A DNA stretch of 64,000 nt from Pseudomonas fluorescens (GTDB lineage Bacteria > Pseudomonadota > Gammaproteobacteria > Pseudomonadales > Pseudomonadaceae). The translations under genes and the position numbers were made by a program. A model generated the notes under the pieces. That model was given only the letters and a program-made list of their open reading frames with translations. It made no database searches and had not been told where the DNA came from. Shown here piece by piece: positions 1,844 through 40,084 of the stretch (positions are counted from its first letter, which is position 1; each line of letters begins with the position of its first letter). Location of the stretch: NCBI RefSeq assembly GCF_019212185.1, contig NZ_CP078138.1, forward strand, positions 2,338,501 through 2,402,500, in the 5' to 3' direction.

Positions 1844-1899
1844 TTTTTCGTGAGCGTTGCGGCGGCCTGGCATGGGTAGAGAGGGTGGACTGCAAACGT

Positions 1900-1932
1900 A
1901 AAAGGCCCGGTGCCATGCACCGGGCCTTTTTT
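1900..1932. terminator. Bidirectional intrinsic terminator
   Basis: A stem of AAAAGGCCCGGTG and CACCGGGCCTTTT closes a 5-base loop, with an A-run on one side and a T-run on the other. It ends both the SPOR lipoprotein gene (+) and the endonuclease gene (-). Confidence 0.92.
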
Positions 1933-1938
1933 CATCAC

Positions 1939-3099: not shown

Positions 3100-3107
3100 G
3101 GCATCCA

Positions 3108-4543
<1,436 letters not shown>

Positions 4544-9763: not shown

Positions 9764-9786
9764 AACGACTTGATGAGTAACGATGT

Positions 9787-21951: not shown

Positions 21952-22028
21952 CGGGGCGTAGCGCAGTCCGGTAGCGCACTAGCATGGGGTGCTAGGGGTC
22001 GAGTGTTCGAATCACTCCGTCCCGACCA
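21952..22028 (+). tRNA. tRNA-Pro(GGG)
   Basis: A 77-nt cloverleaf. The acceptor CGGGGCG pairs with CGTCCCG, the anticodon stem CTAGC/GCTAG closes loop ATGGGGT (anticodon GGG), the T-loop is GTTCGAATC, and CCA is encoded. Its 3' half is the presumed attachment site of the prophage, whose integrase gene ends 80 bp downstream. Confidence 0.95.
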
Positions 22029-22044
22029 TATAATTCAATGACTT

Positions 22045-22107: not shown

Positions 22108-23286
22108 TCACGCCTGCTTCCTCTTCAAGATTGTCAGGACCGGTCCACGCGAATCGGTTGCTGATACCATGTTTGCAGCTTCAATCAGATGCCCGAGCTC
22201 CGCGCCCGAGTAGTGACTGGTGATGCTGCCGTTCTTGTGGCCCAGAAGTGCCTTTCGATCTTCCTCGGTGACGCCTGCTGCGCGTAGCCGACGGCCAAAT
22301 GTGTGTTTGAGGTCGTGGATCCTTATGGATGCATAACCTGGATGAGCGGGGCGAAGGTTTTCCTCCTGCCAGAGTTTTGCCGCTCTCACCCGCGCCTTCT
22401 TCCAAGCCGAGTCGTTCATGCGATGCATTGCGTTGCCGTTGTAGGGGAATACCCATTCCTTGCTCAGGCCTCGCTGTTGCTCGATGATCGACTTGGCCAC
22501 GCTATTCAGCACGACGAGTCGCTCATCACCGTTTTTCACACCGGACCGTTCGTGCCTCCCGCCAAAATCAGCCGGTATCAGAAAAACGCTGCTCCCGAGC
22601 TCCGGTACCGCAATCTCCCAATCCCATCTCAGCTTGCAGACCTCCTGCTCCCGGGTGCCGGTGTTCACTTTGAACAGGGCCATCGTTTGCAGGTGGGCCG
22701 GCAATTCTGCAAACAGAATCGACTGCTCCTGCCATGACATCGGGTAAGGCTTGCGGCTCGACTTCTTCTCTTCCAGTTTCGTGAGCATCGGCACACTATC
22801 CAGCCACGGCCTTCGCTCATCATCTCGCCACTTCCTGGCACACAACGATAAAACCCGAACCACACGCTCGATCGAGATATTCACCGTCCTGTTGCTCACA
22901 CCTTTTTTCACCTTGCCATCTGGCAGCGTCTTGGTCGCCAACCTGTCCTTAATGAAAGGCCCGAGGGCTTGGTCATCAATATGGGTTAGCGGCATGTCGC
23001 CGATGAATTCGTCCAGCTGTGAAAGATGGTGAGCCGAAAGCTTGATCGAAGGCTGATCCTTAAATTCGACCAAGAAGCGCATCGCCGCATCCCGCCACGT
23101 TCTGACCTGCCGAACGCCGTAGACCTTCTCCTGCCGGATCTGCTCCAGTCGGTGTATCAGGTAGCGTTCTGCTTCTTGCCGGTCACTTGTTCCAGTAGAT
23201 TCGTAAAGTCTTTCGCCGTTGATTTTCTTGTCGATATGCCAGAGACCTTTCCTTTGGGAGAGGCCTGTGATCGTTTTTCGCGCCAT
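22108..23286 (-). CDS. int: Phage integrase (tyrosine recombinase)
   Basis: A 392-residue integrase. An N-terminal arm-binding region and SAM-like core-binding domain (about 65-160) precede the catalytic domain (about 180-370). Visible catalytic residues are Arg212 (in Thr-Gly-Thr-Arg-Glu), His324 (His-Asp-Leu-Lys-His-Thr), His350 (Leu-Leu-Gly-His) and the nucleophile Tyr359 (Ser-His-Tyr-Ser). Box II has Lys327 where most relatives have Arg, a variant seen in other Pseudomonas phage integrases. It reads towards tRNA-Pro, as expected for a tRNA-targeting integrase. Confidence 0.95.
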   Translation of the reverse strand: MARKTITGLSQRKGLWHIDKKINGERLYESTGTSDRQEAERYLIHRLEQIRQEKVYGVRQVRTWRDAAMRFLVEFKDQPSIKLSAHHLSQLDEFIGDMPLTHIDDQALGPFIKDRLATKTLPDGKVKKGVSNRTVNISIERVVRVLSLCARKWRDDERRPWLDSVPMLTKLEEKKSSRKPYPMSWQEQSILFAELPAHLQTMALFKVNTGTREQEVCKLRWDWEIAVPELGSSVFLIPADFGGRHERSGVKNGDERLVVLNSVAKSIIEQQRGLSKEWVFPYNGNAMHRMNDSAWKKARVRAAKLWQEENLRPAHPGYASIRIHDLKHTFGRRLRAAGVTEEDRKALLGHKNGSITSHYSGAELGHLIEAANMVSATDSRGPVLTILKRKQA

Positions 23287-23561
23287 TGTGTTTCTCCTTT
23301 CTGGCGCTCGCTGCGGGGCAATTGTTGCTCCGGGGCGCGTTTTTTATCAATTGCTTTGGCCGCAACGTAGGAGGACGCCCACTCGTCCAACTCCTGTCGG
23401 TCGAAACCAACACCTCGCTCGCCGATCGGAAACTCGCTCACGTAGGGGCGGACGATCTCGTTGAATAGGGGGAGTGACATACTCAGGTATGTAGGCGCCT
23501 CGCCAGCCCGAATGAACCTTGGGGCAAGTGGCATGCTTCTGGATGATGCTTTACTGCCCAT
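23157..23561 (-). CDS. Candidate excisionase / AlpA-like DNA-binding protein
   Basis: A 134-residue basic protein. Residues of about 15-60 (Arg-Phe-Ile-Arg-Ala-Gly-Glu-Ala, then Phe-Asn-Glu-Ile-Val-Arg, Gly-Val-Gly-Phe-Asp-Arg-Gln-Glu-Leu-Asp-Glu-Trp) resemble the winged-helix MerR/AlpA fold of excisionases, where a hydrophobic strand precedes Asp-xx-Glu-Leu-Asp-xx-Trp. The Lys/Arg-rich tail overlaps the integrase start by 130 bp in another frame. I chose the ATG at 23561 because GGAG lies 6 bases upstream; 23573 is possible. Position and overlap suggest Xis; this is inference. Confidence 0.65.
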   Translation of the reverse strand: MGSKASSRSMPLAPRFIRAGEAPTYLSMSLPLFNEIVRPYVSEFPIGERGVGFDRQELDEWASSYVAAKAIDKKRAPEQQLPRSERQKGETQWREKRSQASPKGKVSGISTRKSTAKDFTNLLEQVTGKKQNAT

Positions 23562-23600
23562 GTATTGCTCCATGCTGCGCGTGGCGGCAGAAGGTGGTGG

Positions 23601-24095
23601 TTACTGGGAGAACTTGGCGAGCGCTTCGTCTGCAATCTTCATCGCAGCTTGGGCTTCGTTGACGTAGGCTGGGTCGAACCCACCGCACAGGTGGATGGTT
23701 GCCTGGCATGCGCGCAGGTTCTCTCGATTGAGCTTCAGCGCCGAGATCAGCTCTTTGCGTGCCTCGGCCTCACCACGGCCGATATCCCAGAATCGCTGGC
23801 CCCAATGCCCGGCAGGTGGCGGGTTGTTGTTCTGAGAGCCGAAGGCCATTGCCCCGACGATTGAGTCGAGCAGGTCGCGCTTGTAGGCGTTATCGCCGTC
23901 GATGCTCAGGCCCGCCCGGCGCAGGGTGCTCAATACCTCGTCGAGGTCGATCCCTTGATCCTTGAGCACGATGTCGAGTTTTGGTTTTCCTGGCTCGTAG
24001 ATCACCAGTGCCAGCTTGGCGCCGGGCCACAGGTGTTCACTGATGCTGACAAGTGCATCGTTAGCGACTTCGTGAAATCGTTCTGTTGCGGACAT
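23601..24095 (-). CDS. Phage protein of unknown function
   Basis: A 164-residue protein. The N-terminal 65 residues (Phe-His-Glu-Val-Ala-Asn-Asp-Ala, Trp-Pro-Gly-Ala-Lys-Leu-Ala-Leu-Val-Ile-Tyr) look like an alpha/beta domain. The middle contains Phe-Gly-Ser-Gln-Asn-Asn-Asn-Pro-Pro. The C-terminus is helical with two Cys and a His. AGGA precedes the ATG at 24095. The open frame continues upstream to 24404 but without codon or ribosome-site support. It belongs to the leftward early operon. Confidence 0.7.
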   Translation of the reverse strand: MSATERFHEVANDALVSISEHLWPGAKLALVIYEPGKPKLDIVLKDQGIDLDEVLSTLRRAGLSIDGDNAYKRDLLDSIVGAMAFGSQNNNPPPAGHWGQRFWDIGRGEAEARKELISALKLNRENLRACQATIHLCGGFDPAYVNEAQAAMKIADEALAKFSQ

Positions 24096-24145
24096 AGGAA
24101 TTCCTCGCCCGCCGTACACCGGCAGGCTCTTGTGTGGGGTAGGGG

Positions 24146-24457
24146 TTAAATGAGTTCGGCGGGGACTTTGACGTTTGGCCCGTGCTTGGCCCAGACCACT
24201 GCGCGGAACACGGCGATGGTTCGGGTTTCGCCGTCCATGCGGTGCCAGGGCTCTCGGTCTGTAGCAGCGAGCCATGGATAGTGGTAACCGCGCTCGACCC
24301 AGACGCCGTACTTCTCGATCAGTTGCTCGGCGTTTACCTGGGCGAAGAGCTGTAACTGTCCGGCGTCCGGCTGCGGACTGCCCTCGATGGTGTCGATTGC
24401 CCACTGCAGTGCCGGGCCGGCCAGTTCCTCGGTGCTGACGCTGACCCTGCGGCTCAT
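24146..24457 (-). CDS. DUF2591-like phage protein
   Basis: A 103-residue protein. Leu-Ala-Gly-Pro-Ala-Leu-Gln-Trp-Ala-Ile-Asp at residues 12-22 and the Tyr-Pro-Trp-Leu...Pro-Trp segment fit DUF2591, a family found in phage early regions and of unknown role. Its ATG overlaps the stop of the upstream gene (ATGA at 24454-24457), indicating coupling. Confidence 0.75.
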   Translation of the reverse strand: MSRRVSVSTEELAGPALQWAIDTIEGSPQPDAGQLQLFAQVNAEQLIEKYGVWVERGYHYPWLAATDREPWHRMDGETRTIAVFRAVVWAKHGPNVKVPAELI

Positions 24458-24819
24458 CGCCGACCGCCCGCGGCGACAGCAGCCAGCTCGCACTCGGCGG
24501 CTAGCTTCAACAGGTTGCGAGTCGTCGGCGTGAAGCCTTCCGTGTTTGGGTAGTGCGCAAGGTTATGCTCGTGCGGGTATTCCTCGAACGGCCCATGCCA
24601 GCACCAATTCATCTTCCAGTCCGCCCATACGGTGTATGCATCCTGACCTTCGCCCCAATAGTCGGTACCGCCGCCAACGCTCCGTACATGGCTCACGCGG
24701 GTGCGTTGCTCATACGCAAGCTCGCTTGGTTCGTCCTTGTCGATCCAAGCCCGCCGATAGAGCGTTGGGTTCAATTGGACCAGCCTGTTGCTGAGTTTCT
24801 TCTCGATGCGTGCCTTCAT
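24454..24819 (-). CDS. Phage protein of unknown function (Trp/Tyr-rich)
   Basis: A 121-residue protein with many aromatic residues in the middle (Tyr-Trp-Gly-Glu, Trp-Ala-Asp-Trp-Lys-Met-Asn-Trp-Cys-Trp-His). No family is recognised. The ATG at 24819 overlaps the stop of a 17-codon ORF (TGATG), and its own stop overlaps the next ATG. An in-frame GTG at 24822 is an alternative start. Confidence 0.65.
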   Translation of the reverse strand: MKARIEKKLSNRLVQLNPTLYRRAWIDKDEPSELAYEQRTRVSHVRSVGGGTDYWGEGQDAYTVWADWKMNWCWHGPFEEYPHEHNLAHYPNTEGFTPTTRNLLKLAAECELAAVAAGGRR

Positions 24820-24872
24820 CACCGCGGCCCCTTGTAGCGGTAAGCGTAGGCGAACCAGGCGAGGGCGATCAT
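24819..24872 (-). CDS. 17-residue ORF bridging two phage genes
   Basis: ATG at 24872 overlaps the upstream stop (ATGA) and its TGA overlaps the next start (TGATG). The product is a hydrophobic peptide, Met-Ile-Ala-Leu-Ala-Trp-Phe-Ala-Tyr and so on, ending in basic residues. It could be a real micro-protein or simply a device passing ribosomes along the operon. There is no separate ribosome site. Confidence 0.4.
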   Translation of the reverse strand: MIALAWFAYAYRYKGPR

Positions 24873-25294
24873 GGCGTCACATCCCGGCGCGCCCACTGCA
24901 CATACGGGCCGTCCTCTGTATCAAAGATCCCCATCAGGAACCACTCAGGTCCTGGTGACTCGGGATTCCAGGCGGTGCACGCTGCATCCTCTTCAGGAAG
25001 GTCGTAGGTCTCGTCTCCCGAATGCCAGCCTTTCACCTCTAACCCTTGTTCTGCTACCCAGGCCCTGTACGGCGCCGGATCTTCGCCTCCATCGAATTCA
25101 GGTATGCCCGGGTGCCCCCACCAGCCGTCCTTGTCGCGCTTCACTTCGACGGGGCCAAAGGACTTCGGCCTGTGATTCGGGCAAGGCATCACGTAAAGCA
25201 CGTCGGAGTACTCACCACCGCCGGAGCTGAACTCCATCTGGCAGCCGCACTTCGCCGGCTCGCCATTTACGAACGTTATCTTTTCTTCAGGCAT
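24869..25294 (-). CDS. Phage protein of unknown function, Cys-containing
   Basis: A 141-residue acidic protein with Cys-Gly-Cys near residue 16 and Met-Pro-Cys-Pro-Asn-His near 37, possibly one zinc knuckle, and a Trp/Gly/Pro-rich C-terminal half. Start at 25294, with AAGGA 7 bases upstream. It is the last leftward gene before the oppositely oriented ATPase cassette. Confidence 0.65.
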   Translation of the reverse strand: MPEEKITFVNGEPAKCGCQMEFSSGGGEYSDVLYVMPCPNHRPKSFGPVEVKRDKDGWWGHPGIPEFDGGEDPAPYRAWVAEQGLEVKGWHSGDETYDLPEEDAACTAWNPESPGPEWFLMGIFDTEDGPYVQWARRDVTP

Positions 25295-25410
25295 GACTTC
25301 GTCCTTGCCGCTAGTGAGGGGTGATTGCGATTTGAGGGTCAATTGACCATGCATTTCTGAGAAAACTAGGCCAGAATACGTTAGCGGTTTAAAGTTTGGT
25401 GGGAGGCTGA

Positions 25411-26709
25411 ATGCATTACTTTAGAAATTTTAAAAATTACTCGACGGCAGAGATTAATTTATTCTCTAACTTTACGTTACTTATTGGTAAGAACGGAAGT
25501 GGTAAGTCAAATCTGATTGAAGGGGTTGAATTGTTAGCTGCCTTGGCTGAAGGACGGCCTCTTCATGAGATGGTGGAGGGTAGAGGATATTTACCAAATA
25601 TGTACTCCATTAGAGGTGGGATACATAGTTGTGTTAAATTTGGTGAAACTAGTTTTTCTCTTGGTTTCTCTGGATTTTATAAATTTTTAAATAAAAATGA
25701 GCCTTTTGATTATTGTATTACGGTATCCGTTGATCCGTTTCCGTGCGTGATTGCAGAGCATTTACTTGTGGCAGGTCGAAAAATATTTCTTGCTGAAAGT
25801 GAGTCCTCAACTCGAGATGGGCTGCTAAACGTCCAGTTTGATAATTTTGCAAGAGGTGGTACCAAGCCGCATAAGAAGTTTTTCGGTGATAGGTCTATTA
25901 TTTCCCGGTATGAAGAGCTTACCGAAAGTAATGAGGCAGGAGATAAGAATAAAAAATTAAAGGCTGTGCAGATGGTGGCGTCGATCAAACGCTATCTTCA
26001 GTCTTCATTTGTTTTCGATCCCAGCCCAAAGTTAATGCGCGATTATGTTAGGCAGGGGCAGAATGTTCTGTTGAAAGATGGTTCGAACATCTCTGCTGTT
26101 CTTCACTCTATGAGTCTGTCTAAAGCTGATCCATCGCCATTGGCAAATGTTCTTTCCGTGATACGTCAAATTCCGGAGGAGCCTTTTTTAAATTTTGGCT
26201 TTGTCATTACAACTCAGCATGATGTTTTGCTTACTTTACAGTCTGGCAAGTATCCAGTTGATGCTCGACTTGTTTCAGACGGTACTTTAAGGGCGATGGC
26301 CGTGGTCACGGCTCTCGAGTCTATAAATGACGGTTCGCGCGTTGTTATTGAGGAGTTCGATAATGGACTGCATCCAAGTAGGGCGGAGGTTTTACTAGAA
26401 GCTATCAGGGAAATAGTTGCAAGAAAAAAACTAAATATACTACTTTCAACACACAACCCGGCAAGCCTGAATTCGCTAGATGCGGATTGGTTGAAAAATG
26501 TGCATGTTTGTTATTGGGACGCCTTGGAAGATACTTCGAAGTTAACAGGGTTGTTAGATATTCCAGATGTTGATGCGCTGCTGGAGTCCAATGGTGGGTT
26601 AGGGGATCTTGTAACTAAGTCTGTCTTTGAAAAGCATTTGGCTCCTCGATTTGAAGAAAGTAAGAAACAAGTGGCTAAAGACTGGTTGAGGCGCTTGGTT
26701 AATGAGTAA
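25411..26709 (+). CDS. AAA/ABC-type ATPase (OLD/AAA_21-like), defence candidate
   Basis: A 432-residue ATPase. The N-terminus resembles SMC/OLD-type ATPases: a Phe-Lys-Asn-Tyr segment, Walker A GKNGSGKS at residues 26-33, then Leu-Ile-Glu-Gly-Val. An ABC-type signature region (Ser-Asp-Gly-Thr-Leu-Arg-Ala-Met, near 289-296), Walker B Val-Val-Ile-Glu-Glu-Phe-Asp-Asn-Gly (about 311-319) and switch His in Ser-Thr-His-Asn-Pro (about 346-350) complete it. No TOPRIM or other nuclease domain follows. Codon use is AT-rich, unlike the flanking phage genes. Its stop overlaps the next gene by 8 bases. ATPases of this class pair with nuclease effectors in antiphage systems such as PARIS and Septu. Confidence 0.85.
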   Translation: MHYFRNFKNYSTAEINLFSNFTLLIGKNGSGKSNLIEGVELLAALAEGRPLHEMVEGRGYLPNMYSIRGGIHSCVKFGETSFSLGFSGFYKFLNKNEPFDYCITVSVDPFPCVIAEHLLVAGRKIFLAESESSTRDGLLNVQFDNFARGGTKPHKKFFGDRSIISRYEELTESNEAGDKNKKLKAVQMVASIKRYLQSSFVFDPSPKLMRDYVRQGQNVLLKDGSNISAVLHSMSLSKADPSPLANVLSVIRQIPEEPFLNFGFVITTQHDVLLTLQSGKYPVDARLVSDGTLRAMAVVTALESINDGSRVVIEEFDNGLHPSRAEVLLEAIREIVARKKLNILLSTHNPASLNSLDADWLKNVHVCYWDALEDTSKLTGLLDIPDVDALLESNGGLGDLVTKSVFEKHLAPRFEESKKQVAKDWLRRLVNE

Positions 26710-27214
26710 AATAGTACTTTTGGATACTAGTTATTTTCTTGAGCTTTTTCTTGTTCCTATGGATTCGGTGCAGGCGAAGCACGAAGAGGCAGTTGCTCTA
26801 TTTGATCAGGCTATTGATGGCTCGTATCATCTTTACTGTACTCTAGGAGTTTTATATGAGGTGGCTAATCATATTGTTGATATTAAGAATGCAGAGACTC
26901 AAAACCGAATAGCAATGGCGTATAAAGAAATGGTTGTTCTTTCCTGGAATACTAATTCTCCATTTACGATTGTTCCTAGCTCAAACTCGAGTGAGGTCTT
27001 AGCTCAGTTTTCATCGCTTCCTGAGCTTTGCCAGAAATACTCCGAATCACTACGGCAACGACTTAGTCTTGTGGATTGTACTATTGCTGAAGTTGCGGAG
27101 AAAATTCAAGCTAATTATTTGAGTAGGAGTAGGCGCTGGCCGGCTCATATTTGGACTACACATGGCGAGTTGAAGGCGTTAGAGCCAGATAGATTTGAAA
27201 ATCCTTACTTTTAA
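26702..27214 (+). CDS. PIN-like nuclease, partner of the ATPase
   Basis: A 170-residue protein. It starts Ile-Val-Leu-Leu-Asp-Thr-Ser-Tyr-Phe, the first acidic strand of PIN domains (Asp8). Later come Gly-Val-Leu-Tyr-Glu-Val-Ala (second acidic residue) and Leu-Ser-Leu-Val-Asp-Cys-Thr-Ile-Ala-Glu-Val-Ala near residue 128, the third PIN motif. PIN proteins are metal-dependent RNases. Base composition matches the ATPase and the frames overlap by 8 bases, so the two form a unit. No antitoxin is visible, which argues that the ATPase itself controls it. The nuclease assignment is by eye. Confidence 0.75.
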   Translation: MSKIVLLDTSYFLELFLVPMDSVQAKHEEAVALFDQAIDGSYHLYCTLGVLYEVANHIVDIKNAETQNRIAMAYKEMVVLSWNTNSPFTIVPSSNSSEVLAQFSSLPELCQKYSESLRQRLSLVDCTIAEVAEKIQANYLSRSRRWPAHIWTTHGELKALEPDRFENPYF

Positions 27215-27246
27215 ATCCCTAACCGCTACTTTGCATTCGAGGGATT
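27212..27246 (+). terminator. Possible terminator of the ATPase-PIN cassette
   Basis: AATCCCT (27214-27220) and AGGGATT (27240-27246) pair around a 19-base loop, with a T-run eight bases further on (CTTTTT). It lies at the cassette's 3' end. Confidence 0.35.
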
Positions 27247-27665
27247 AAGTCTTGCTTTTTGAGAAGAGAGGATTATCAAGACGTTGAAAAAGTGGTGGCC
27301 CGCTCTGTTTTATTTTGTGTATCTACTGGTGCCTTCAAGGCATCCGTCGGAGCTCGGCGTACTGTGGTGTATCGAACATGGGCGATTGCTGGCGAACTGT
27401 ACCCCTATGATCTTCTGGGCTCTCTTCTCGACCAGGGTCAGCCACTCAGCTTCCGGGATAGGCTCGACGCAGCCTGGAGCCTTGAGGTTTTTTGCGGGTG
27501 CCGCTGGTCTTCTAGCGCGCCTCGGCGGTGGCGACGTCAATGGTCATGCCAAGCACTGCAAATGTGCTCATAGCTTATCTCCGGGCAGCCGCCGGCTTGG
27601 CCAGGCTGGCGTGATTCGTTGAAGTGGGGTATGAATCTCTGATCTCACACTGGCAGGAGGCCGAC
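27247..27665. other. Region with only doubtful reading frames
   Basis: Rightward frames from 27259 and 27284 and a leftward TTG-started frame (27310-27540) overlap each other. The leftward product (Pro/Arg-rich start, then Glu-Ala-Glu-Trp-Leu-Thr-Leu-Val-Glu-Lys) has the most protein-like codons, but an ATG at 27547 that would suit it is in another frame and meets TAG after 11 codons. It could be the broken end of a leftward early gene. Confidence 0.35.
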
Positions 27666-27854
27666 ATGAGGTTACAAAGCGATGTAGACGCCTTGGCGGC
27701 GATTGAAGAGGACGCGAAAGCAATGCTGAAACGGATAGGGCTGCCCAACAGCGAGCAAATGCTTGAGGTGGTCGTCTTCCTTCGCCAGATCATTGATCTC
27801 GCCACCTATACGGAGTCACTTGGCCAATTCATTGAATCGCCGAACTTCGTCTAA
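27666..27854 (+). CDS. Small phage protein, helical
   Basis: A 62-residue protein rich in Ala, Glu and Leu, probably a helical hairpin. The start at 27666 follows AGGAGG at the ideal distance. It lies immediately after the ATPase-PIN cassette and on the same strand, but its GC-rich codons match the phage backbone. Function unknown. Confidence 0.65.
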   Translation: MRLQSDVDALAAIEEDAKAMLKRIGLPNSEQMLEVVVFLRQIIDLATYTESLGQFIESPNFV

Positions 27855-27933
27855 GCCTGAGGCGATGGTGGCAAATTGGTGGAGCTTGGGGTATTTGTGT
27901 TCGGCCCGGCATGGGGCCGGTGAGGAGATAAAA

Positions 27934-28164
27934 ATGGATGAGCACTTCAAGAAAATACCCATTCCGGAGGGTCACACGCTTGTGGCGGCAGGACTCGAAT
28001 GGAAAGGCGCTCGGAAAGGGCGTGATACGGACATCTATTTTTATAATGAGTTGAATGCAGCTGGAGAAGTTGTTGCTTCGTACGAAGTGACCGACAGCAT
28101 GTCTACCTATCCACCTTTCAGCAGCAGCATTAGCGTTTCCAAGGTCAAAGGTTCGGGCGAATAA
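27934..28164 (+). CDS. Small phage protein of unknown function
   Basis: A 76-residue protein with an N-terminal Ile-Pro-Ile-Pro-Glu-Gly-His segment and a Ser-rich C-terminus. GAGGAG sits 8 bases before the ATG at 27934; the longer open frame to 27763 overlaps the upstream gene and is not supported. It is convergent with the DUF2303 gene across a strong hairpin. Confidence 0.65.
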   Translation: MDEHFKKIPIPEGHTLVAAGLEWKGARKGRDTDIYFYNELNAAGEVVASYEVTDSMSTYPPFSSSISVSKVKGSGE

Positions 28165-28176
28165 CCTCGTCCCCCG

Positions 28177-28202
28177 GATCCTGCTGAATCATCAGCAGGA
28201 TC
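28177..28202. terminator. Hairpin between convergent genes
   Basis: GATCCTGCTG and CAGCAGGATC form a perfect 10-bp stem with a 6-base loop between the stops of the genes at 27934 (+) and 28215 (-). It has no long T-run, but its position suits a bidirectional transcription block. Confidence 0.55.
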
Positions 28203-28214
28203 ACTTTGGCAGGC

Positions 28215-29030
28215 TTACTTGGGATCAAATGATCCGAGGGAGAGATAGGCATTGGTGCCGATTTTTTCCTGAAGCACCGTCTTGAATTCCTGGGCGATGT
28301 CTTCACGCTGCACCTCTTCACCAACCCAGCGCAACTTCAGCGCCGGCACCGTGCCGCTGGTGATCACCGAAATTCGCAGGTTGATCTGCTGCTCGGTCAG
28401 GCCTTCGAACGGGATGGTGCTGAACAGCAGGGCTGCCGGCAGTGTTTCTTTGCTACGGGCCTCAATCTGATCCATGGCGCTACGGCTGGCGCTGGTGTCG
28501 CCAACGGTGGTTTCGGATTCGCTGGTGGCTTTGACCGTGATGGTCCGAACGGCAGCGATGGCCCGGGCAACAGGAATCGCTTTGCCTTCGTCATCCACCG
28601 GCGTCAGGTACTGGTGCCAATCCTCGATCCAGTCGCTCAGATCCTTCTGCGTCATAGTCCGACCGCCGATGCTTTGAGCGGCCTTGTAGCCGGCCGACGC
28701 CTTGAGCTTCAGCACTGCGCGGTCATCCGCGTGGCCAGGGGTTACATCAGTGCCCAGGTTGAACAGCAGCGTGCAGGTCATCTCGTCCTGGTCGATGAAG
28801 CCTTTGGCAGTTGAGATGGCACGGCCAGCGACATACGCGCTGAAGTCGGCCAGCGAGTGGGTGGAGTAGATGCCGCGGAAACGGCTACGGCCGGCCTGCC
28901 ATTTCTCCAGGGTGACGACTTGGCAGCCTTCCGGCAGAACAACGGTCGGCGTCTGGGTTGCCAGGTGCTTACCTGTCGCTTCGAGCGCGGTGTCGGTGAT
29001 GAGCTGGATCGCTTCTTTGGTCAGAGACAT
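28215..29030 (-). CDS. DUF2303 (YfdQ-like) phage protein
   Basis: A 271-residue protein that fits the YfdQ/DUF2303 family of phage early-region proteins: Leu-Glu-Lys-Trp-Gln...Arg-Phe-Arg-Gly near residues 41-53, Gly-His-Ala-Asp-Asp-Arg-Ala-Val-Leu in the middle, and Thr-Gln-Lys-Asp-Leu-Ser-Asp-Trp-Ile-Glu-Asp-Trp. The molecular role is not known to me. It is cotranscribed with its upstream neighbour at 29057, which has the YfdP-like position. Confidence 0.85.
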   Translation of the reverse strand: MSLTKEAIQLITDTALEATGKHLATQTPTVVLPEGCQVVTLEKWQAGRSRFRGIYSTHSLADFSAYVAGRAISTAKGFIDQDEMTCTLLFNLGTDVTPGHADDRAVLKLKASAGYKAAQSIGGRTMTQKDLSDWIEDWHQYLTPVDDEGKAIPVARAIAAVRTITVKATSESETTVGDTSASRSAMDQIEARSKETLPAALLFSTIPFEGLTEQQINLRISVITSGTVPALKLRWVGEEVQREDIAQEFKTVLQEKIGTNAYLSLGSFDPK

Positions 29031-29056
29031 TGTTCAGTTCCTTGGTAGTCGAGCGG

Positions 29057-29404
29057 TTAGGTGCGTGGGGTGATGGGGGCTTGTTCGCGGCTGAAGAGTT
29101 GGTCGTGCTTTTCCGCGAAGAGGGTGATCTTGCCGCCGGAGCCGACGTGCATCGGCGTGTCCAGGCTGGTGTTCTCGCTGCGGGTACCGCGCTTGGTCGG
29201 CACCTTGTAGTCGAGCTTGTGCTTGATCTTCACCTGGCTGGACTCGCCGATCTGGCTGAAGTCCAGGGTGATGACCAGCTTGCCGGCCTTTCCGTGGTCG
29301 ACTACACCGGAGGCCACTTCAGACAGGGCGTAACCGATCTGGCTGGCGAAGGCACCGCCGTTCAGCTCTTCGAGAAATTCGGCGGTATCTGTTGCAGTTG
29401 GCAT
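29057..29404 (-). CDS. Phage early protein next to DUF2303
   Basis: A 115-residue protein with alternating strands (Ala-Gly-Lys-Leu-Val-Ile-Thr-Leu-Asp-Phe, Gln-Val-Lys-Ile-Lys-His-Lys-Leu) and a C-terminus containing Ile-Thr-Leu-Phe. It is the usual small partner upstream of DUF2303 genes in prophages; function unknown. 26 bases separate its stop from the next start. Confidence 0.7.
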   Translation of the reverse strand: MPTATDTAEFLEELNGGAFASQIGYALSEVASGVVDHGKAGKLVITLDFSQIGESSQVKIKHKLDYKVPTKRGTRSENTSLDTPMHVGSGGKITLFAEKHDQLFSREQAPITPRT

Positions 29405-29516
29405 TGCGATTACCTCGGGTAGGCGCCGCCCTCCGTGACCGGATGCGGCAGTGGGGTGGTGGAAGTTTGTGAGTAGGTGCGTATGATTTGGTGTTTCGAA
29501 CTAGCCAGGAGGCTTT

Positions 29517-29852
29517 ATGTCGTTTTTTCGAGCTGCACAATGTTTCGCAGCAGCCCAAGATGCACTCACACCACCGCTCCCTTACAGCAATGCGGAAGCT
29601 GTTAAGCACGCATTTAGCGAATGCTCCGAAGGCTTGTCCGGCGTGCCGCGCTCGGAGCTTGATCAGCAAGCTCTGGAGTGGGTCTCTCAGCTAGATTTGC
29701 TGATGGATTATTCAGAGATTGCTGTGCCTCAAGGTAAGGGCGGTCTTCCTGCAAAGGCAGAACTGATTGGCGAGGCGGATCAGAAACTGCTGCTGCAGTT
29801 GGTGGGTGATTTGCAGGCTTGGTTCAGTGCCGCGAACAAGAAGCCTATCTAA
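29517..29852 (+). CDS. Small phage protein on the opposite strand
   Basis: A 111-residue helical protein that runs against the leftward operon. AGGAGG precedes the ATG by 4-5 bases. It contains Ser-Glu-Leu-Asp-Gln-Gln-Ala-Leu-Glu-Trp and a Leu-Gln-Leu-Val-Gly-Asp-Leu-Gln-Ala-Trp end. No family recognised. Its stop overlaps the stop region of the leftward gene at 29849 by 4 bases. Confidence 0.6.
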   Translation: MSFFRAAQCFAAAQDALTPPLPYSNAEAVKHAFSECSEGLSGVPRSELDQQALEWVSQLDLLMDYSEIAVPQGKGGLPAKAELIGEADQKLLLQLVGDLQAWFSAANKKPI

Positions 29853-30211
29853 GAAGGGACTCCGATTTCGTCTTCCGGCTCGCTTGGGCCGTCGTGGAGT
29901 TTGCGAAGGCTCTGTTTATGGAATTCACGCGACACCTCTTCGGTAATAGCGAAAGGTGTCGTGACACAGCGAAGCATAGCGGCAGCAGTCTCGAAGTCCG
30001 CAGCAATCACGTTGCGCTGCAGGTTCTGATACACCTCTTGCTGGTTGTTGAATCCGTGCTCTTTCATCAAGCGCTTGAGGTCAGGCATGAACACGCCGGC
30101 GACTTCAACTGTGAACCGGCCGATGCCTTTCTTGGCATTGTCGGCGGCTTTCTTCTCGCGCTTCTTGCGGTGCTTGATGGCTTCCGCCGTCGCCTGCTGT
30201 ACCGCGGCCAT
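29849..30211 (-). CDS. Phage early protein, Lys-rich N-terminus
   Basis: A 120-residue protein. The first 30 residues are Lys/Ala-rich (His-Arg-Lys-Lys-Arg-Glu-Lys-Lys), followed by a helical domain with Met-Pro-Asp-Leu-Lys-Arg-Leu and a predicted three-helix segment (Glu-Val-Tyr-Gln-Asn-Leu-Gln-Arg-Asn), possibly nucleic-acid binding. No family assigned. Confidence 0.65.
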   Translation of the reverse strand: MAAVQQATAEAIKHRKKREKKAADNAKKGIGRFTVEVAGVFMPDLKRLMKEHGFNNQQEVYQNLQRNVIAADFETAAAMLRCVTTPFAITEEVSREFHKQSLRKLHDGPSEPEDEIGVPS

Positions 30212-30280
30212 GGCCTACCTCTTCAATTCCGCAGGCTGGTATCTCCAGCCATGTTTGTCGTTTGCGCTGCTGGATACGAG

Positions 30281-30895
30281 CTAAGCGACGCATGAGGTAC
30301 AGCCCTGGCGTGCTTTCGGGTAGTCGATGCCATGGGCAGCGATGATCCGCTCGAAGGCTTTGTTGCCGATGGCCAGCCTGCCGCAGCACTGGCGCCGGGT
30401 GATGCCCAGCTCCAGATACGCTCTGATCCGTTCTGCAAGCCTCGCATCCCGGGCCGCCATCTGCTCCAGTCGAGCGGAGTCATAGGCGCCGCTGCGCTCA
30501 GGCTTTTGATAGGAAAAGTCGTAGTCATTGGACAGAGTGAGCAGCTTGCGCCGGTTGATGCCGGTCAGTTGGTGCACCTCCGTCTGGGTCATCGTCTCTG
30601 CCAAACCCTTGATCCGCTCGACCAGAGCTGCCTTTACCCTGGCACGCTCTTCGCGCTCGATATCGCGCTGCGTGATCCGTTCGACTTTGATCGGCGCCGC
30701 GGCGCGCCGCCTCGGTGCTGATCGCTTGATTGGTTCCGGGTCATGCCGGATTGGAGGAGGGGAGTACGTGAAAGGAGCCAACTCCTGAATAGTCCCTCCT
30801 GCTTTCAAGAACGCCTCGACATTGCTGTTCAGCTCCGCACTACGCGAGGCGTTCATTTGGATCATGCTGAGTTCGTGGCTGATATGGATATTCAT
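30281..30895 (-). CDS. Phage DNA-binding-like protein with two HTH-like segments
   Basis: A 204-residue basic protein. Residues of about 95-120 (Met-Thr-Gln-Thr-Glu-Val-His-Gln-Leu-Thr-Gly-Ile-Asn-Arg-Arg-Lys) read like a helix-turn-helix. A second similar unit lies near 170-190 (Ile-Thr-Arg-Arg-Gln-Cys-Cys-Gly-Arg-Leu-Ala-Ile-Gly). The frame extends upstream to 31048, but the ATG at 30895 overlaps the exonuclease stop as ATGA, the pattern of this operon. Role unknown. Confidence 0.65.
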   Translation of the reverse strand: MNIHISHELSMIQMNASRSAELNSNVEAFLKAGGTIQELAPFTYSPPPIRHDPEPIKRSAPRRRAAAPIKVERITQRDIEREERARVKAALVERIKGLAETMTQTEVHQLTGINRRKLLTLSNDYDFSYQKPERSGAYDSARLEQMAARDARLAERIRAYLELGITRRQCCGRLAIGNKAFERIIAAHGIDYPKARQGCTSCVA

Positions 30896-31509
30896 GCGGC
30901 GATCCCCAAAACCCTGTTCATCCGCTCGTCCAGGATTTCGTAGAAGGTTTTCACCCGTTCGGCGAGCTTGCGGATCATCGCTTCGTCGCGGTACACGCGC
31001 TTTACGAAGAGGGGCATGCCAGGCCAGTAACTGATGAAGTCCAGCCATTCACGCTCGGATACCCACAGACCGCCTTGGCACTGGGCGACGTGCTCCTTTG
31101 GCACTTCGCCATTCAAAATCACGCCGACCTGAAACTTGGGCAGTTTGGTCTTGATTTCGGTGAGGCCCTTGTCGCCAACCAGTGCGTCAGGGGAGTACCC
31201 GATTCCATGGTTCAAGATGATCCCTACTGACCTGGTCTTGAGGCTTTCTCGGTCCTCATACAGCCCGCGCGCGACTCCCTCCAGCTCATGTCCCCGGATA
31301 GTGGCCTTGGTCTGGAAAGGAATCTCGGCAGCCTCTTCGGTGATGCGTTCGCCGATTAGCTGATCCATGTAGGTGAATGCGGCCACGCCGAAACCCGCCT
31401 CGCCTTTGCCAGCGACCAGCAGGCAATCCAGCTCGGAGCAGGTGATGATGCCCAGGCGAAGAGCAAGCCACTCAGGTGTGCCCTGATCGATATCAGTGAT
31501 AATCTGCAT
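30892..31509 (-). CDS. YqaJ/lambda-exonuclease-like recombination nuclease
   Basis: A 205-residue PD-(D/E)XK nuclease. The YqaJ pattern is visible: Gly-Thr-Pro-Glu-Trp-Leu-Ala-Leu-Arg-Leu-Gly-Ile-Ile-Thr near the start, a central Tyr-Ser-Pro-Asp-Ala-Leu-Val-Gly, then Glu-Ile-Lys-Thr-Lys (the ExK motif, about residue 118) and Gln-Cys-Gln-Gly. It resects double-strand ends 5' to 3' to feed the ERF annealase encoded upstream, whose 3' end it overlaps by 17 bases. Confidence 0.9.
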   Translation of the reverse strand: MQIITDIDQGTPEWLALRLGIITCSELDCLLVAGKGEAGFGVAAFTYMDQLIGERITEEAAEIPFQTKATIRGHELEGVARGLYEDRESLKTRSVGIILNHGIGYSPDALVGDKGLTEIKTKLPKFQVGVILNGEVPKEHVAQCQGGLWVSEREWLDFISYWPGMPLFVKRVYRDEAMIRKLAERVKTFYEILDERMNRVLGIAA

Positions 31510-32269
31510 TTTGTGTCTCCAGGAGCGCTGATTCGTGCTGCTTGACTGACTTGCTGAGCATCCCCAGCACCTGGTCGAACGCGGCCTTTTCCACCGCAGA
31601 CGGCGTGCCGTGAATACTGGCGAATGCAGCCTTGGCTTTGTCGCTGCAGCGCTCTAGCAGCATGGCCAGTTGAGTTGCCTGAACCGAGGTAACGCGCGGC
31701 GTCACAACGGCGCCGTTACCGTCATCGTCCTCGCCGGTGGTGGTGAAGTTGAGAAGGGCGCCGGCTGTGTAGCGCTTGCCGTAGCTCACGCTGGAGGCCA
31801 CGGCCTGGACGCCGTTCTTGCTGCCGCTGGTGTCTGCCGGAAGCACGAGCGAGGTTGTTTCGCGATGGCCGGCTCTATGGCTCAGAACGCCCTCGACCTC
31901 AATGCCCCGGTCGTTGCGTGGAGTGCGGAAGGTGATCGCGAACCCATGGCGGGCGAGCACCGGCTTGATCACCTCATTGATGTCTTCCCAGAGGGCGTAG
32001 GTGCTCTGGATACGGCCGTTTTTGTCCTTGATACCACCGCGCTCTCCAATGACTGGCAGCTCTTCCTGCATGGCTGACAGCGCTTCGTCGTATTGCTGCT
32101 TGGCCTGCAGCGCATGAATGTTTTGGTGCATGACCATCAACCGCTCCATCTTGTCGATGTCTGCGGTTGGGGACATGGCTACCTGCTGGATGATCTGCAG
32201 GATGGTGACCGACTCGGCGGCTACCGCCGGCGGCTGGGAATGAGTTTCGACCCTGGCTACATGGCTCAT
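31493..32269 (-). CDS. ERF-family single-strand annealing protein
   Basis: A 258-residue protein of the ERF superfamily. Key segments are Gln-Tyr-Asp-Glu-Ala-Leu-Ser-Ala-Met-Gln, Tyr-Ala-Leu-Trp-Glu-Asp-Ile-Asn-Glu-Val-Ile, the Gly-Phe-Ala-Ile-Thr-Phe strand, and the hallmark Ser-Tyr-Gly-Lys-Arg-Tyr. It anneals homologous single strands for Rec-independent recombination and concatemer formation, partnering with the exonuclease at 30892. Confidence 0.92.
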   Translation of the reverse strand: MSHVARVETHSQPPAVAAESVTILQIIQQVAMSPTADIDKMERLMVMHQNIHALQAKQQYDEALSAMQEELPVIGERGGIKDKNGRIQSTYALWEDINEVIKPVLARHGFAITFRTPRNDRGIEVEGVLSHRAGHRETTSLVLPADTSGSKNGVQAVASSVSYGKRYTAGALLNFTTTGEDDDGNGAVVTPRVTSVQATQLAMLLERCSDKAKAAFASIHGTPSAVEKAAFDQVLGMLSKSVKQHESALLETQNADYH

Positions 32270-32279
32270 GGCGGTTACC

Positions 32280-33383
32280 TCAGAAGTTGATGGTGATATG
32301 GGGGATTTCGCGGCGCGCGATCTTCAGAACAATGGTTTTGGCCAGATCTTCAGTGATGTTCAAGGACATCAGCGCCTCTTTGGCAGCGCCCATGACCTTC
32401 ACCTTGTGCGCCTGGTCGGCTTCGCGCAGCTTCTCCTGCCGCAGTATTTCGTCGGCCGCCGCCTGCTGTCGGGCGACTTCATCTTGGCGGGCGCGCTCCA
32501 CGGCCTCAGCCTGGCGGCGTTCGGCATCAATGCGTTGTTGCTCGGCGCGCTGCTCCGCCTCGATCCGCTGACGTTCTGCCTGTTCAGCCTGAAGCTGCAA
32601 TTGCAGGCGCTGGTTCTCGGCATCCTGTCTCTCCCGCTCGGCGGCATCGATCAGGGCCTGCTCGCGCTGAGCCGCTGCTTCACGATCGGCCTGTGCCCGC
32701 TGTTCGGCCTCAACGCGGGTGCGCTCGACGGCCTCACGGGCAATCGCTGCCTCACGGTCTGCCTTGGCGCGGGCTTCGGCCTCTTCGCGGAGGCGGGCCA
32801 GTTCGGCTTGCTCAGCTTCGTACCTGGTGCGCTCGGCGTGTACGGCGCGAAGCTTTGCCAGCGTCTGGTCCTTCACTTGGGCAGCTTCGGCTAAGAACTC
32901 TTCCCAGCTTTCGTCGATTGCGACCAGCTCCAGGTCGGCAATAATCTGGGCGACCTGCTCGGCGCGCGGTGCTCCCTCGAAAACAGCCAGATCCTTGATC
33001 CGTTGAATTCCGTCGACGTGCGCGTCGGTCCGGGCCAGCTCTTTTTGCTCCCAATCCGTCAGTGGCTGGCGGGTGGCGTCTCGCAGGGTATCCATCTTGG
33101 TGACGAACTCCCGCAGCTCAGCCTCGACCACCTTCGGCATTTCCTTCAGGCGCTTCAGGTAATCGCGGCCAGGCTTTTCCACAGCCGTTTTCGATTTGCT
33201 GACCTTGGCGGCGAGAGAGGCGATACGGTCGCGACCCTTGCGAGTGGTCAGGTCCGGGACCTCGGCGGAGACTTCCGCCTGTACCGCGTCGAAGAACCGG
33301 CCAAGGCCACCGGTGACGTATATGACCGGAGCGTTGTCGGCGTTGATGTCGTCGATGGTGATGACTTGCTGTTTTGCGGACAC
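32280..33383 (-). CDS. Long coiled-coil phage protein of the recombination operon
   Basis: A 367-residue protein. The first 150 residues are globular (Ile-Tyr-Val-Thr-Gly-Gly-Leu, then Ser-Lys-Ser-Lys-Thr-Ala-Val-Glu-Lys). Residues of about 180-320 are an extreme Ala/Glu/Arg/Gln coiled coil, and a small C-terminal domain ends Pro-His-Ile-Thr-Ile-Asn-Phe. The GTG at 33383 is the likely start because AAGGA lies 7 bases upstream; the frame itself runs to 33647. Similar proteins sit upstream of ERF genes in other prophages; biochemical function unknown to me. Confidence 0.8.
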   Translation of the reverse strand: MSAKQQVITIDDINADNAPVIYVTGGLGRFFDAVQAEVSAEVPDLTTRKGRDRIASLAAKVSKSKTAVEKPGRDYLKRLKEMPKVVEAELREFVTKMDTLRDATRQPLTDWEQKELARTDAHVDGIQRIKDLAVFEGAPRAEQVAQIIADLELVAIDESWEEFLAEAAQVKDQTLAKLRAVHAERTRYEAEQAELARLREEAEARAKADREAAIAREAVERTRVEAEQRAQADREAAAQREQALIDAAERERQDAENQRLQLQLQAEQAERQRIEAEQRAEQQRIDAERRQAEAVERARQDEVARQQAAADEILRQEKLREADQAHKVKVMGAAKEALMSLNITEDLAKTIVLKIARREIPHITINF

Positions 33384-33427
33384 GAGCGAATCCTTGCCGC
33401 GATGCACGCAGCGTTTGAAGGTGTTGG

Positions 33428-33544
33428 TTATTGGGTGAGCTGGCCGGAGTAGGCGCTTGCCAGCATCCAGGCAATGAAGAGGAGAAGGGTGATGGCTGAG
33501 CCGCGCCAGAAGCAGTAGCGCTTGGCGCGCTGGTAGGAGGTCAT
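33428..33544 (-). CDS. 38-residue single-pass membrane protein
   Basis: ATG at 33544, 7 bases after a perfect AGGAGG, with TAA at 33428. The product has a basic N-terminus (Gln-Arg-Ala-Lys-Arg-Tyr), one hydrophobic helix (Ile-Thr-Leu-Leu-Leu-Phe-Ile-Ala-Trp-Met-Leu) and a short polar tail. Its start overlaps the upstream stop (ATGA). The strong ribosome site makes it a credible micro-protein of unknown role. Confidence 0.6.
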   Translation of the reverse strand: MTSYQRAKRYCFWRGSAITLLLFIAWMLASAYSGQLTQ

Positions 33545-33690
33545 TTTGTAGCCTCCTTTTCCTGCTTAGCCTTGATGGCGCAGTCGGCATGCTGCACTCG
33601 CCAACTGCCAAGATGACGCTCGAAATGGCCGGCGCCCGCTGCAACACTGCCGTGGCAGCGATAGCAGATGCCTGGGTGCTTGTTTCTCAT
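33541..33690 (-). CDS. 49-residue Cys/His protein (possible zinc knuckle)
   Basis: ATG at 33690 overlaps the upstream stop and its TGA overlaps the next ATG. The product has Cys-Tyr-Arg-Cys-His-Gly, Gly-His-Phe-Glu-Arg and Gln-His-Ala-Asp-Cys, spacing that could bind one zinc. Function unknown. Coupled starts and stops on both sides support it as a real gene. Confidence 0.6.
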   Translation of the reverse strand: MRNKHPGICYRCHGSVAAGAGHFERHLGSWRVQHADCAIKAKQEKEATK

Positions 33691-33890
33691 GTCCGCACCT
33701 CATAAGCGACAGTCCACTCACCGCACAGGCAGGCCCGGCAGCTCCAGGCATGCACATTCGGGATGCCCGCATCGTGAGCCAGCGAAAGGGCGCCCAGCCA
33801 CTTGGTGTGGGTGAAGGCCAGGATCATGCGGTCGGCGGGCAGCTCTTCGAGCTGTTCGTCGATCAGCGTTTTAACCGGTGGCGTACTCAT
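33687..33890 (-). CDS. Small phage protein with Cys triplet
   Basis: A 67-residue protein with Ser-Cys-Arg-Ala-Cys-Leu-Cys near its C-terminus. AGGAG precedes the ATG at 33890, which overlaps the upstream stop. It is part of a chain of five tightly coupled small genes (34512 down to 33428). Function unknown. Confidence 0.62.
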   Translation of the reverse strand: MSTPPVKTLIDEQLEELPADRMILAFTHTKWLGALSLAHDAGIPNVHAWSCRACLCGEWTVAYEVRT

Positions 33891-34078
33891 GCGAACTCCT
33901 TTCGCTGCCTGCAATGCTTCAGCAGACGCTGGCAGTAGTGGCTGAACTCTTCGAGGGTGATCAACTGGTCGGTCATTAGGTTGGTGATGATCTGCTGGAC
34001 CAGAACGCTGTTGTCGGGCGGGCAGTCGGGATACTCAAGACCCGCCAGGGCCTCGTCGATCAAAATGTAAGGGCTCAT
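33887..34078 (-). CDS. Small phage protein of unknown function
   Basis: A 63-residue, mostly helical protein (Ile-Leu-Ile-Asp-Glu-Ala-Leu-Ala-Gly-Leu; Gln-Gln-Ile-Ile-Thr-Asn-Leu) with a basic C-terminus. Its start overlaps the stop of the gene at 34075 by 4 bases and its stop overlaps the next start. Confidence 0.6.
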   Translation of the reverse strand: MSPYILIDEALAGLEYPDCPPDNSVLVQQIITNLMTDQLITLEEFSHYCQRLLKHCRQRKEFA

Positions 34079-34512
34079 AGGTCACCGTCCACATCGTCTT
34101 CTGCCTCTTCACGCTGGGCGGTTGCCGCATCGGCGGCGTGCGGCCGGAGCAGGTCGGCTGCGATTTCCTCGAGCCGCTCGATCAACCGCTCGCTGCCCAG
34201 CAGGTATTTGGCATGGGTGCGGCAATCGCTGCTACTTCCAACTACCGAGCTCAGAACCAACTTGGCGAACGAGTCGCGATCATCCAAGCCGTCAATTTGG
34301 CGCTGAGTCAGGTGCAGTTGCAGGTGAGTGGCGTATTCCGCCGCGGTCACCCTCTGCACCGGACCAAGCCGGCGCTTCCACGTCACATCCGACCCGCACA
34401 CCAGCTGTTCAGCGGCGCTCTCAAGCCATTCGCGCTGGTAATCCTGCTCGCTCACCGCCGAAGGCAACTGCGCGTCGTAGTTGAACTGACAAATCTTCAG
34501 TGCTGCATTCAT
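34075..34512 (-). CDS. Phage early protein of unknown function
   Basis: A 145-residue acidic helical protein. GGAGG lies 5 bases before the ATG at 34512. It contains Tyr-Gln-Arg-Glu-Trp-Leu-Glu-Ser-Ala and a very acidic C-terminus (Glu-Glu-Ala-Glu-Asp-Asp-Val-Asp). No family recognised. Confidence 0.65.
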   Translation of the reverse strand: MNAALKICQFNYDAQLPSAVSEQDYQREWLESAAEQLVCGSDVTWKRRLGPVQRVTAAEYATHLQLHLTQRQIDGLDDRDSFAKLVLSSVVGSSSDCRTHAKYLLGSERLIERLEEIAADLLRPHAADAATAQREEAEDDVDGDL

Positions 34513-34658
34513 GGTCGCCTCCAGGGTGGCGGGTATTGATCCAACAAAACTCGGCTGCACTCATCCATTCCGCTGGTTGCCGATGGGCGCGGAGGGGAGT
34601 GCATGCGGGTGGTGTCGGAGGGTATAAGTGGGAATACGATTTCAATAAGGATGTTTCT

Positions 34659-39636: not shown

Positions 39637-40084
39637 CTAGCATATCCTCAGAATCTATCTTGGGCACTTCGGCAGGGGGCTCTGAAGAGCTTTTATTGGT
39701 CGATGGCGTGCGTCGTCGGGGCTTTGCTGCGACTTTCGTGGTAGTAGCTATCACGTACGAGCCGATTTCAGTGAGTCTGTCGTTGGCGTACTCAAGTTCG
39801 CCAACCCTTGCGGTCAGCTCTATCGATTTTTGCGCGTGCTCAACTACTTCGTGGCTTAGTTGGCCGTTTATATGCATTAACTTCAAGCAAAGTCGAGTCA
39901 AAAATATGCCAATCAATATCGCTGATATCCATCCCGATAGACTAAGCCATAAAGATCTATCTCCGGAACTCGAGTAATAGACAGACAAAGCAATACCTGC
40001 TGCCCCCAGGAAGACACCGATAACCCCGTAATAGAATCCTGCAAGCGATACGCTGTCAGAATGTGATTTGTTTCCATCAGACAA
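39626..40084 (-). CDS. Membrane protein of the immunity-region cargo
   Basis: A 152-residue protein with two membrane helices (about 14-36 and 47-68), a coiled coil (about 75-105, His-Glu-Val-Val-Glu-His-Ala-Gln-Lys-Ser) and a Lys/Ser/Pro-rich tail. It overlaps the Beta-family gene by 11 bases and follows the repressor gene by 43 bases on the same strand. Lambda RexB occupies an equivalent place and is also a membrane protein, but I see no sequence similarity. Confidence 0.75.
   Translation of the reverse strand: MSDGNKSHSDSVSLAGFYYGVIGVFLGAAGIALSVYYSSSGDRSLWLSLSGWISAILIGIFLTRLCLKLMHINGQLSHEVVEHAQKSIELTARVGELEYANDRLTEIGSYVIATTTKVAAKPRRRTPSTNKSSSEPPAEVPKIDSEDMLDDN

Follow-up and report, generated by a model that had tools for sequence, protein, structure and literature searches.

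The question raised by this locus is what two adjacent AT-rich genes, one for an ABC-type ATPase and one for a PIN-fold protein, do in a prophage of Pseudomonas, where they are read against the direction of the genes around them. The window analysed here is the whole 64-kb stretch C1:2338501-2402500, which lies inside one 6.34-Mb Pseudomonas contig. Our results indicate that the pair is real, well delimited and ancient, and that a role in defence is likely. It is probably a two-gene, ATP-gated abortive-infection module that forms part of the cargo of a temperate Pseudomonas phage, and it is best read as a PIN variant of the ABC-ATPase-plus-nuclease architecture of WonAB, PARIS and Septu. The pair comprises the following features:

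25411-26709, (+) strand: ABC-type ATPase, 432 amino acids, PADLOC family PDC-M07A
26702-27214, (+) strand: PIN-fold protein, 170 amino acids, PADLOC family PDC-M07B
26702-26709, (+) strand: overlap of the two genes, 8 bases

Both genes encode intact members of a catalogued candidate system

A first-pass annotation, made from the sequence alone, had described a 432-residue ABC ATPase with intact Walker A, signature and Walker B motifs, overlapping by 8 bases a protein with three PIN-like acidic motifs. The two reading frames and their overlap stand as described, and the key residues of the ATPase are invariant in 30 aligned family members: G26, G31 and K32 of Walker A (GKNGSGKSN), the signature SDGTLR (289-294), E314 and E315 of Walker B, and H348 of the H-loop. 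The protein matched Pfam AAA_21 (E=1.4e-22) and AAA_15. In PADLOC it matched PDC-M07A over residues 4-429 of 432 (E=2.7e-97); the next other family was HEC-01A (E=1.1e-29), and the PARIS AriA model (E=1.6e-26) also fell far below PDC-M07A. The ATPase might have turned out to belong to a known housekeeping family; instead it matches a defence candidate, and among the 25 NCBIfam families listed of 37, none reaches its cut-off. The cut-off of the NCBIfam PtuA equivalog is likewise unmet (26.6 bits of 500). In the predicted structure, the head has a RecF/SMC/Rad50-like fold, the top Foldseek match is PtuA (E=7e-12), and a C-terminal extension (residues ~383-432) is modelled with low confidence in the monomer. 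In the VIA list of 50 rows AriA was absent, which speaks neither for nor against a relation.

For the second protein, structure prediction gave a PIN fold with high confidence, as the first-pass annotation had expected, and the closest fold was that of the VapC toxins. It matched PDC-M07B over residues 5-169 (E=1.1e-31), scored just under the cut-off of Pfam PIN PF01850 (20.5 bits against 23.6) and matched no NCBIfam family; a sequence comparison of the PIN profile with the PDB gave a weak match to RNA-free RNase P (E=0.04). The three acidic motifs are strongly conserved in 71 aligned sequences, a set that includes the window and omits most truncated members: at position 8, D occurs 70 times and E once; at position 53, E occurs 68 times; and at position 125, D occurs 65 times, N five times and G once. 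The fourth acid position, 154, is His in the window; 39 of the 71 sequences have D there and 26 have H. Compared with the copy on a second prophage contig (L087), the ATPase gene shows 187 synonymous and 26 non-synonymous codon differences and the PIN gene 67 and 18, and this synonymous excess shows that they are not chance open reading frames (ORFs). Both genes are intact and under purifying selection.

Because adjacent genes match both the A and the B model, the pair is already catalogued as the PADLOC candidate PDC-M07. The first-pass annotation had known of no named system joining such an ATPase to a PIN protein; a catalogue entry does exist, while our literature search found no study of PDC-M07 or of this ATPase-PIN pair, and an earlier test in the preprint of Payne et al. 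(2024) is possible. The PADLOC candidate series arose through 'guilt by embedding', and most of the candidates discussed await validation; the source cites the Payne preprint (PMC12988326; this and all other papers given by PMC number are cited for those portions of their text that were consulted). Another candidate pair, PDC-M63AB, was tested and had no effect (PMC12409345). The consulted portions of PMC10853773, PMC2701414, PMC9252829 and PMC11811056 contain nothing on an ATPase-PIN pair.

The ATPase and the PIN protein are paired across phyla

Searches with the ATPase alignment, with genome loci taken from the best 80 of 118, gave 91 ATPase loci: 79 in species genomes, 6 in viral contigs and 6 on plasmids or phages. 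Four of these ATPases run off their contig and eight are outgroups (the lone RecF-like gene L101, and seven at ~25% identity whose partner gene is a different one). Behind the ATPase of the 79 other loci, a PIN-profile match was present in 71, the window's own prophage (locus L086) being counted. Within these 71, a contig end cuts L009, L013, L056 and L061, the PIN proteins of L025, L050 and L066 are short, and at L054, L059 and L070 the reading frame that was identified does not contain the first motif. Among the eight loci without a match, L036 and L047 retain a PIN remnant, L046 ends just inside PIN, L030 encodes a PIN-like protein from outside the family, L027 has none, and L043, L071 and L076 are partial ATPase matches. 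Two diverged pairs (31-33%) lie on the viral contigs L089 and L090.

The reverse search with the PIN alignment gave 9, 4 and 13 places outside the window in the genus, class and phylum sets, and the ATPase stood beside PIN in 9/9, 3/4 and 12/13 of them. The PADLOC model matched five genomes among 194 relatives, one of them new (G140) and again with an adjacent ATPase, so that the PIN-first searches combined show the ATPase adjacent in 25 of 27 cases. The two search directions are not fully independent, since the PIN alignment was built largely from pairs. Among 65 loci with starts assigned by script, 52 have overlapping genes (31 by 4 nucleotides and 8 by 8 nucleotides), which makes translational coupling probable. 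The pairing is ancient, nearly obligate and, in both directions of search, conserved across phyla.

This distribution also bears on the idea that the genes form a cellular RNA-processing or DNA-repair pair, a RecF/SMC-like ATPase with a PIN nuclease, that rides on mobile elements incidentally. The RecF/SMC/Rad50-like head, the weak RNase P match and the location of distant Pseudomonas members amid chromosomal genes would suit it. However, the family is rare and very patchy (10/398, 5/369 and 13/398 genomes of the genus, class and phylum sets, own genome counted each time), low in GC, mobile and borne by prophages and plasmids, and we consider a cellular pair highly improbable.

Several further observations were made at the margins of the family. 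The ~25%-identity ATPases L079-L082, L084, L085 and L091 have another downstream partner, and the two partners scanned (L080, L082) are DUF4276 proteins. At L030, a PIN-like protein outside the PDC-M07 PIN family is encoded at 1774-2244 (+), 181 nucleotides after the ATPase, with a Pfam PIN match (E=1.3e-4) below cut-off. At L036, a TIR-domain gene (9447-10139, +) follows the PIN remnant, and this is perhaps an effector replacement. At L308 (genome G140), a second distant ATPase relative (3104-4081, -; 24-28% identity) lies ~4 kb from the pair.

The pair is a sharply bounded mobile unit in a prophage cargo slot

The setting of the pair is defined by these features (window coordinates):

21952-22028: tRNA-Pro(GGG)
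21982-22038: attL, a 57-bp direct repeat over the 3' part of the tRNA gene
22108-23286, (-) strand: tyrosine integrase of the prophage
25349-25410, (+) strand: 62-bp leader, presumed promoter and ribosome-binding region, alignable to L087 and not to L088
27214-27246, (+) strand: weak hairpin with a 7-bp stem
28215-29030, (-) strand: DUF2303 gene, bordering the variable cargo slot that holds the cassette
74478-74534, beyond the window end: attR, the other copy of the 57-bp repeat

The cassette DNA aligns to the prophage contigs L087 (80.6%) and L088 (69%). The alignment with L087 begins 62 bp ahead of the ATPase gene and ends at the PIN stop codon; that with L088 begins 9 bp ahead of the ATPase gene and ends two bases short of the last base of the PIN gene. 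Besides the pair, L087 shares none and L088 two of the 26 window genes tested; the integrase gene adjoins the pair in both, and ~2.1 kb separate them in the window. The pair is thus a sharply bounded mobile unit. Its composition differs from that of its surroundings: GC content is 0.410 and GC content at third codon positions (GC3) 0.365 for the ATPase gene, and 0.400 and 0.327 for the PIN gene, against 0.554-0.607 and 0.62-0.81 for six other prophage genes. Shortly 3' of the pair, at 27624-28164, lie two small (+) ORFs with GC contents of 0.52 and 0.51. The AT-richness in the first-pass annotation is thereby borne out, as is the orientation of the pair, opposite to its neighbours at 22108-25354 and 28215-34560. 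The hairpin that it had noted behind the pair fared otherwise: 11 of 200 shuffles of the region equal it (z=-1.63), it was not called as a terminator, and it is missing behind the other two prophage copies (L087, L088), and we rejected it both as a terminator and as part of the unit. No sigma-70 consensus was found in the leader, and a comparison of 24800-28300 with Rfam gave nothing that reached the gathering score.

The prophage measures ~52.5 kb, its ends being marked by the 57-bp direct repeat. IMG/VR contig 2791355514_000001, similar to it in size (52,172 bp), carries a near-identical copy (L086); 22 window genes were found on it, and their proteins are 98.7-100% identical. Recognised prophage genes include those for terminase, tape measure, ERF, DUF2303 and an S24/HTH repressor-like protein. 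Of the 26 window genes tested, int, g138, g120 and g124 were the only ones with a match in phage SC_8_H2H8_2017.

Comparison of related prophages showed that the position 3' of DUF2303 is variable. In 22 loci with both flanking genes (two of them the window's own prophage, and some contigs represented twice) the content differs, with fillings of 2.2-6.8 kb; the pair occupies the slot only at the near-identical prophage (two loci, one contig), and no exact empty site was found among the 22. The longest opposite-strand ORF has a GC content <0.52, a threshold of our own choice, in 40 of 70 DUF2303 loci with room, a set that includes the window's own, keeps redundant contigs and has no control site. 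As a further observation, the hotspot loci L140-L219 carry differing AT-rich opposite-strand genes 3' of DUF2303. Forty-four cargo proteins from the slot, forming 31 similarity groups, were scanned. The PADLOC models matched were PDC-S31 (2 members), PDC-M14B (1), AbiP (1) and a TIR effector (1), their best E-values ranging between 3e-45 and 9e-7; the Pfam matches were to putAbiC (2), AbiU2 (1) and DUFs. The output does not name members, and the PADLOC and Pfam matches may coincide. In 43 control genes from elsewhere in the same loci, only weak matches (E=1e-4 to 9e-4) were obtained, one to each of three PADLOC models. There is thus moderate support for a defence slot beside DUF2303, and the hotspots in P2-like phages and P4-like satellites are consistent with it (PMC9122126).

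Two other places in the prophage drew attention. A second AT-rich stretch (37775-40084; GC content 0.435-0.50 in 1-kb steps), beside the S24/HTH repressor-like gene, contains a 'Beta_protein' PF14350 gene at 38557-39636 (-) among unmatched neighbours and is possibly another cargo cassette. In addition, a DUF6530 gene (47938-48426, -) runs against the direction of the subsequent terminase and tail genes.

Some family members lie inside type I restriction operons

Two plasmids, pAQU1 of Photobacterium damselae (two records) and pIFL1_3 of Vibrio campbellii, have the order hsdM-hsdS-ATPase-PIN-hsdR (L097, L098 and L123). The same order recurs in genome G541 (L300), from the window's class, with an extra stretch between hsdM and hsdS and a SprT-like gene after hsdR. 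Identities of L300 to pAQU1 are 40% for HsdR, 54% for HsdM, 24% for HsdS, 55% for the ATPase and 49% for PIN, and given this strong divergence the arrangement either persisted through much divergence or arose repeatedly. Between pIFL1_3 and pAQU1, hsdM and hsdR are 94.5-96.5% identical and hsdS 40%. A tblastn search with the pAQU1 hsd proteins found no operon at L086 or at the other loci tested, with only distant, weaker matches at L048 and L067, and none was found in 9 of 10 widened loci; many loci have short flanks. Linkage to type I restriction-modification as a general rule was therefore rejected, as it is confined to pAQU1, pIFL1_3 and L300 among the loci tested.

The position between hsdS and hsdR in these four records recalls PrrC, an ABC-ATPase/anticodon nuclease that is linked to a type I enzyme and kept silent by it (PMC2610378). 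On this basis the pair could be a split PrrC, in which the ATPase watches the type I enzyme, or a phage anti-restriction protein, and frees the PIN RNase once restriction has been defeated. Such a function is improbable for the family: no hsd operon was found at L086 or in 9 of 10 widened loci, short as many flanks are, which argues against it, and the effector is a PIN protein rather than the PrrC nuclease.

The C terminus of the ATPase co-diverges with the PIN protein

Distance matrices of the two proteins from 58 pairs are strongly correlated (r=0.835), and 0 of 1000 permutations reached this value. With the signal of the rest of the ATPase removed, windows 325-420 of the ATPase correlate best with PIN; the peak lies at residues 349-408 (0.54) and was best in 93 of 100 subsamples. 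Since subsamples of related sequences are not independent, the peak is a pointer to the docking region and not proof of it. With this reservation, co-divergence points to the C-terminal region of the ATPase as the part that may dock PIN.

A possible mechanism and the evidence weighed

An abortive-infection module of this kind may work as follows. A dimer of the ABC ATPase would bind the PIN protein through its C-terminal extension, hold and position it, and sense an infection event of some kind. The triggered ATPase would then license PIN to cleave an RNA of translation, perhaps a tRNA or 23S rRNA, upon which growth would stop and a rival phage with it. The sensing, holding and licensing steps are drawn by analogy with WonAB and PARIS. 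The first-pass annotation had likewise proposed prophage-borne defence with an RNase effector, and none of the three outcomes that it had named as refuting (no PIN fold, no conserved pairing, a housekeeping ATPase) occurred. That proposal is now the best reading through the cargo slot and the type I operon copies, and it is supported only in part: its hairpin fails, the pair was already a PADLOC candidate, and defence and the RNA target are inferred.

Several points weigh against a defence module. First, PIN domains serve also in addiction and in RNA maturation. Second, in the three Gemmatimonadota PIN proteins L048, L051 and L065 Q or K stands in place of E53 and N in place of D125, and judged by these residues they may be inactive although the pair is retained. 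Third, a defence-island context for the distant Pseudomonas members was rejected, none being seen in 20 neighbours scanned: the annotated neighbours of L112-L114 are housekeeping, efflux and type VI secretion genes, and ten neighbours at L115-L118 gave a single PADLOC match, to a TnsB-like protein. Fourth, the enrichment in the slot is modest (four PADLOC systems with five member matches in 44 proteins, against three weak matches in 43), and the Pfam scan and the AT-richness of the slot have no control.

The first of these points leads to the toxin-antitoxin explanation, in which the ATPase would be an antitoxin silencing a VapC-like toxin, the pair would stabilise its prophage or plasmid, and defence would be secondary or absent. 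The PIN fold is closest to VapC toxins, the operon is small with overlapping genes, several members lie on plasmids, one of only 9 kb, and a source names member P0010 'VapC family toxin'. VapB antitoxins, however, are small DNA-binding proteins, and a 432-residue ABC ATPase is far from those known. The position within hsd operons also suits a guard better than an addiction module, and the analogue WonAB is not a simple sequestration pair (PMC12137116). We therefore regard a toxin-antitoxin function as unlikely, and retain the abortive-infection module as the preferred explanation.

A more far-reaching version of the guard idea is that the pair is a split, PIN-based counterpart of PrrC and PARIS, in which the ATPase would guard the restriction or replication machinery and would license, rather than merely inhibit, a PIN RNase acting on rRNA or tRNA; the system would span many phyla, and effectors would be exchangeable on related ATPases. 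We offer this only tentatively, and its full form is doubtful.

Abortive-infection pairs of an ATPase and a nuclease form a growing group, in which the effectors are of the Toprim, HNH and PD-(D/E)xK types. If the module is what we propose, its ABC ATPase with a PIN effector would bring the best-known RNase toxin fold of toxin-antitoxin systems into this group, and what the ATPase senses would become a direct question. Trigger and function are open to experiment through the type I operon copies and the sharp bounds of the prophage cassette, and the slot 3' of DUF2303 is a ready place to seek more such systems in Pseudomonas prophages.

Comparison with known systems

The pair belongs to PDC-M07 itself: no other family comes near the A and B models in matching the two proteins, the genes are adjacent, and nothing structural differs. 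Among characterised systems, WonAB of the WASA-1 prophage of V. cholerae is likewise prophage-borne and consists of two genes, for an ABC ATPase and a small nuclease. Its nuclease is predicted to be seated on dimerised C-terminal extensions of the ATPase, and the system shuts off translation; overproduced WonB is toxic only with active WonA, so that simple sequestration does not describe it (PMC12137116). The window ATPase may parallel this: it has a C-terminal extension, of low confidence in the monomer model, in the region of the co-divergence peak. WonB, however, is a PD-(D/E)xK nuclease and the window partner is a PIN protein, and the two ATPases are likened by description. PD-T4-4 and 'OLD-ABC ATPase + Novel REase' are relatives of WonAB.

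PARIS (AriA/AriB) also combines an ABC-type ATPase with a nuclease, lies in mobile-element hotspots and has an AriA model that matches our ATPase (E=1.6e-26). AriB, however, is a Toprim tRNase, which cuts tRNAs (PMC12409363), where the window has PIN, and the ATPase fits PDC-M07A far better. In the PtuA-PtuB pair of Septu and retrons, PtuA is the top Foldseek match of our ATPase model, while PtuB is an HNH protein rather than PIN. PrrC and RloC couple an ABC ATPase to an RNase and share the type I restriction-modification link seen in four family records, but each is a single fused protein with another nuclease domain, whereas the window has two overlapping genes and no hsd genes were found near the L086 copy.

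On the side of the effector, VapC20 and VapC26 share the PIN fold and are among the closest solved structures; both cut the sarcin-ricin loop (PMC8522696). Unlike in VapBC, the partner in the window is a 432-residue ABC ATPase and not VapB. In the DefensePredictor systems DS-3 and DS-5 the PIN domain is needed for phage defence, and a PIN domain had been validated elsewhere (PMC13092281), so that a PIN effector in defence is in itself no novelty. As described in the portions of that source consulted, DS-3 is one protein, and the DS-5 partner is a DUF5830/AcrIF4-like protein rather than an ABC ATPase. What is new for the pair studied here is that the shared DNA ends at the PIN stop, that the slots of relatives hold abortive-infection-type genes, that four records place the pair in a type I operon, and that the C terminus of the ATPase is the part that co-diverges most with PIN.
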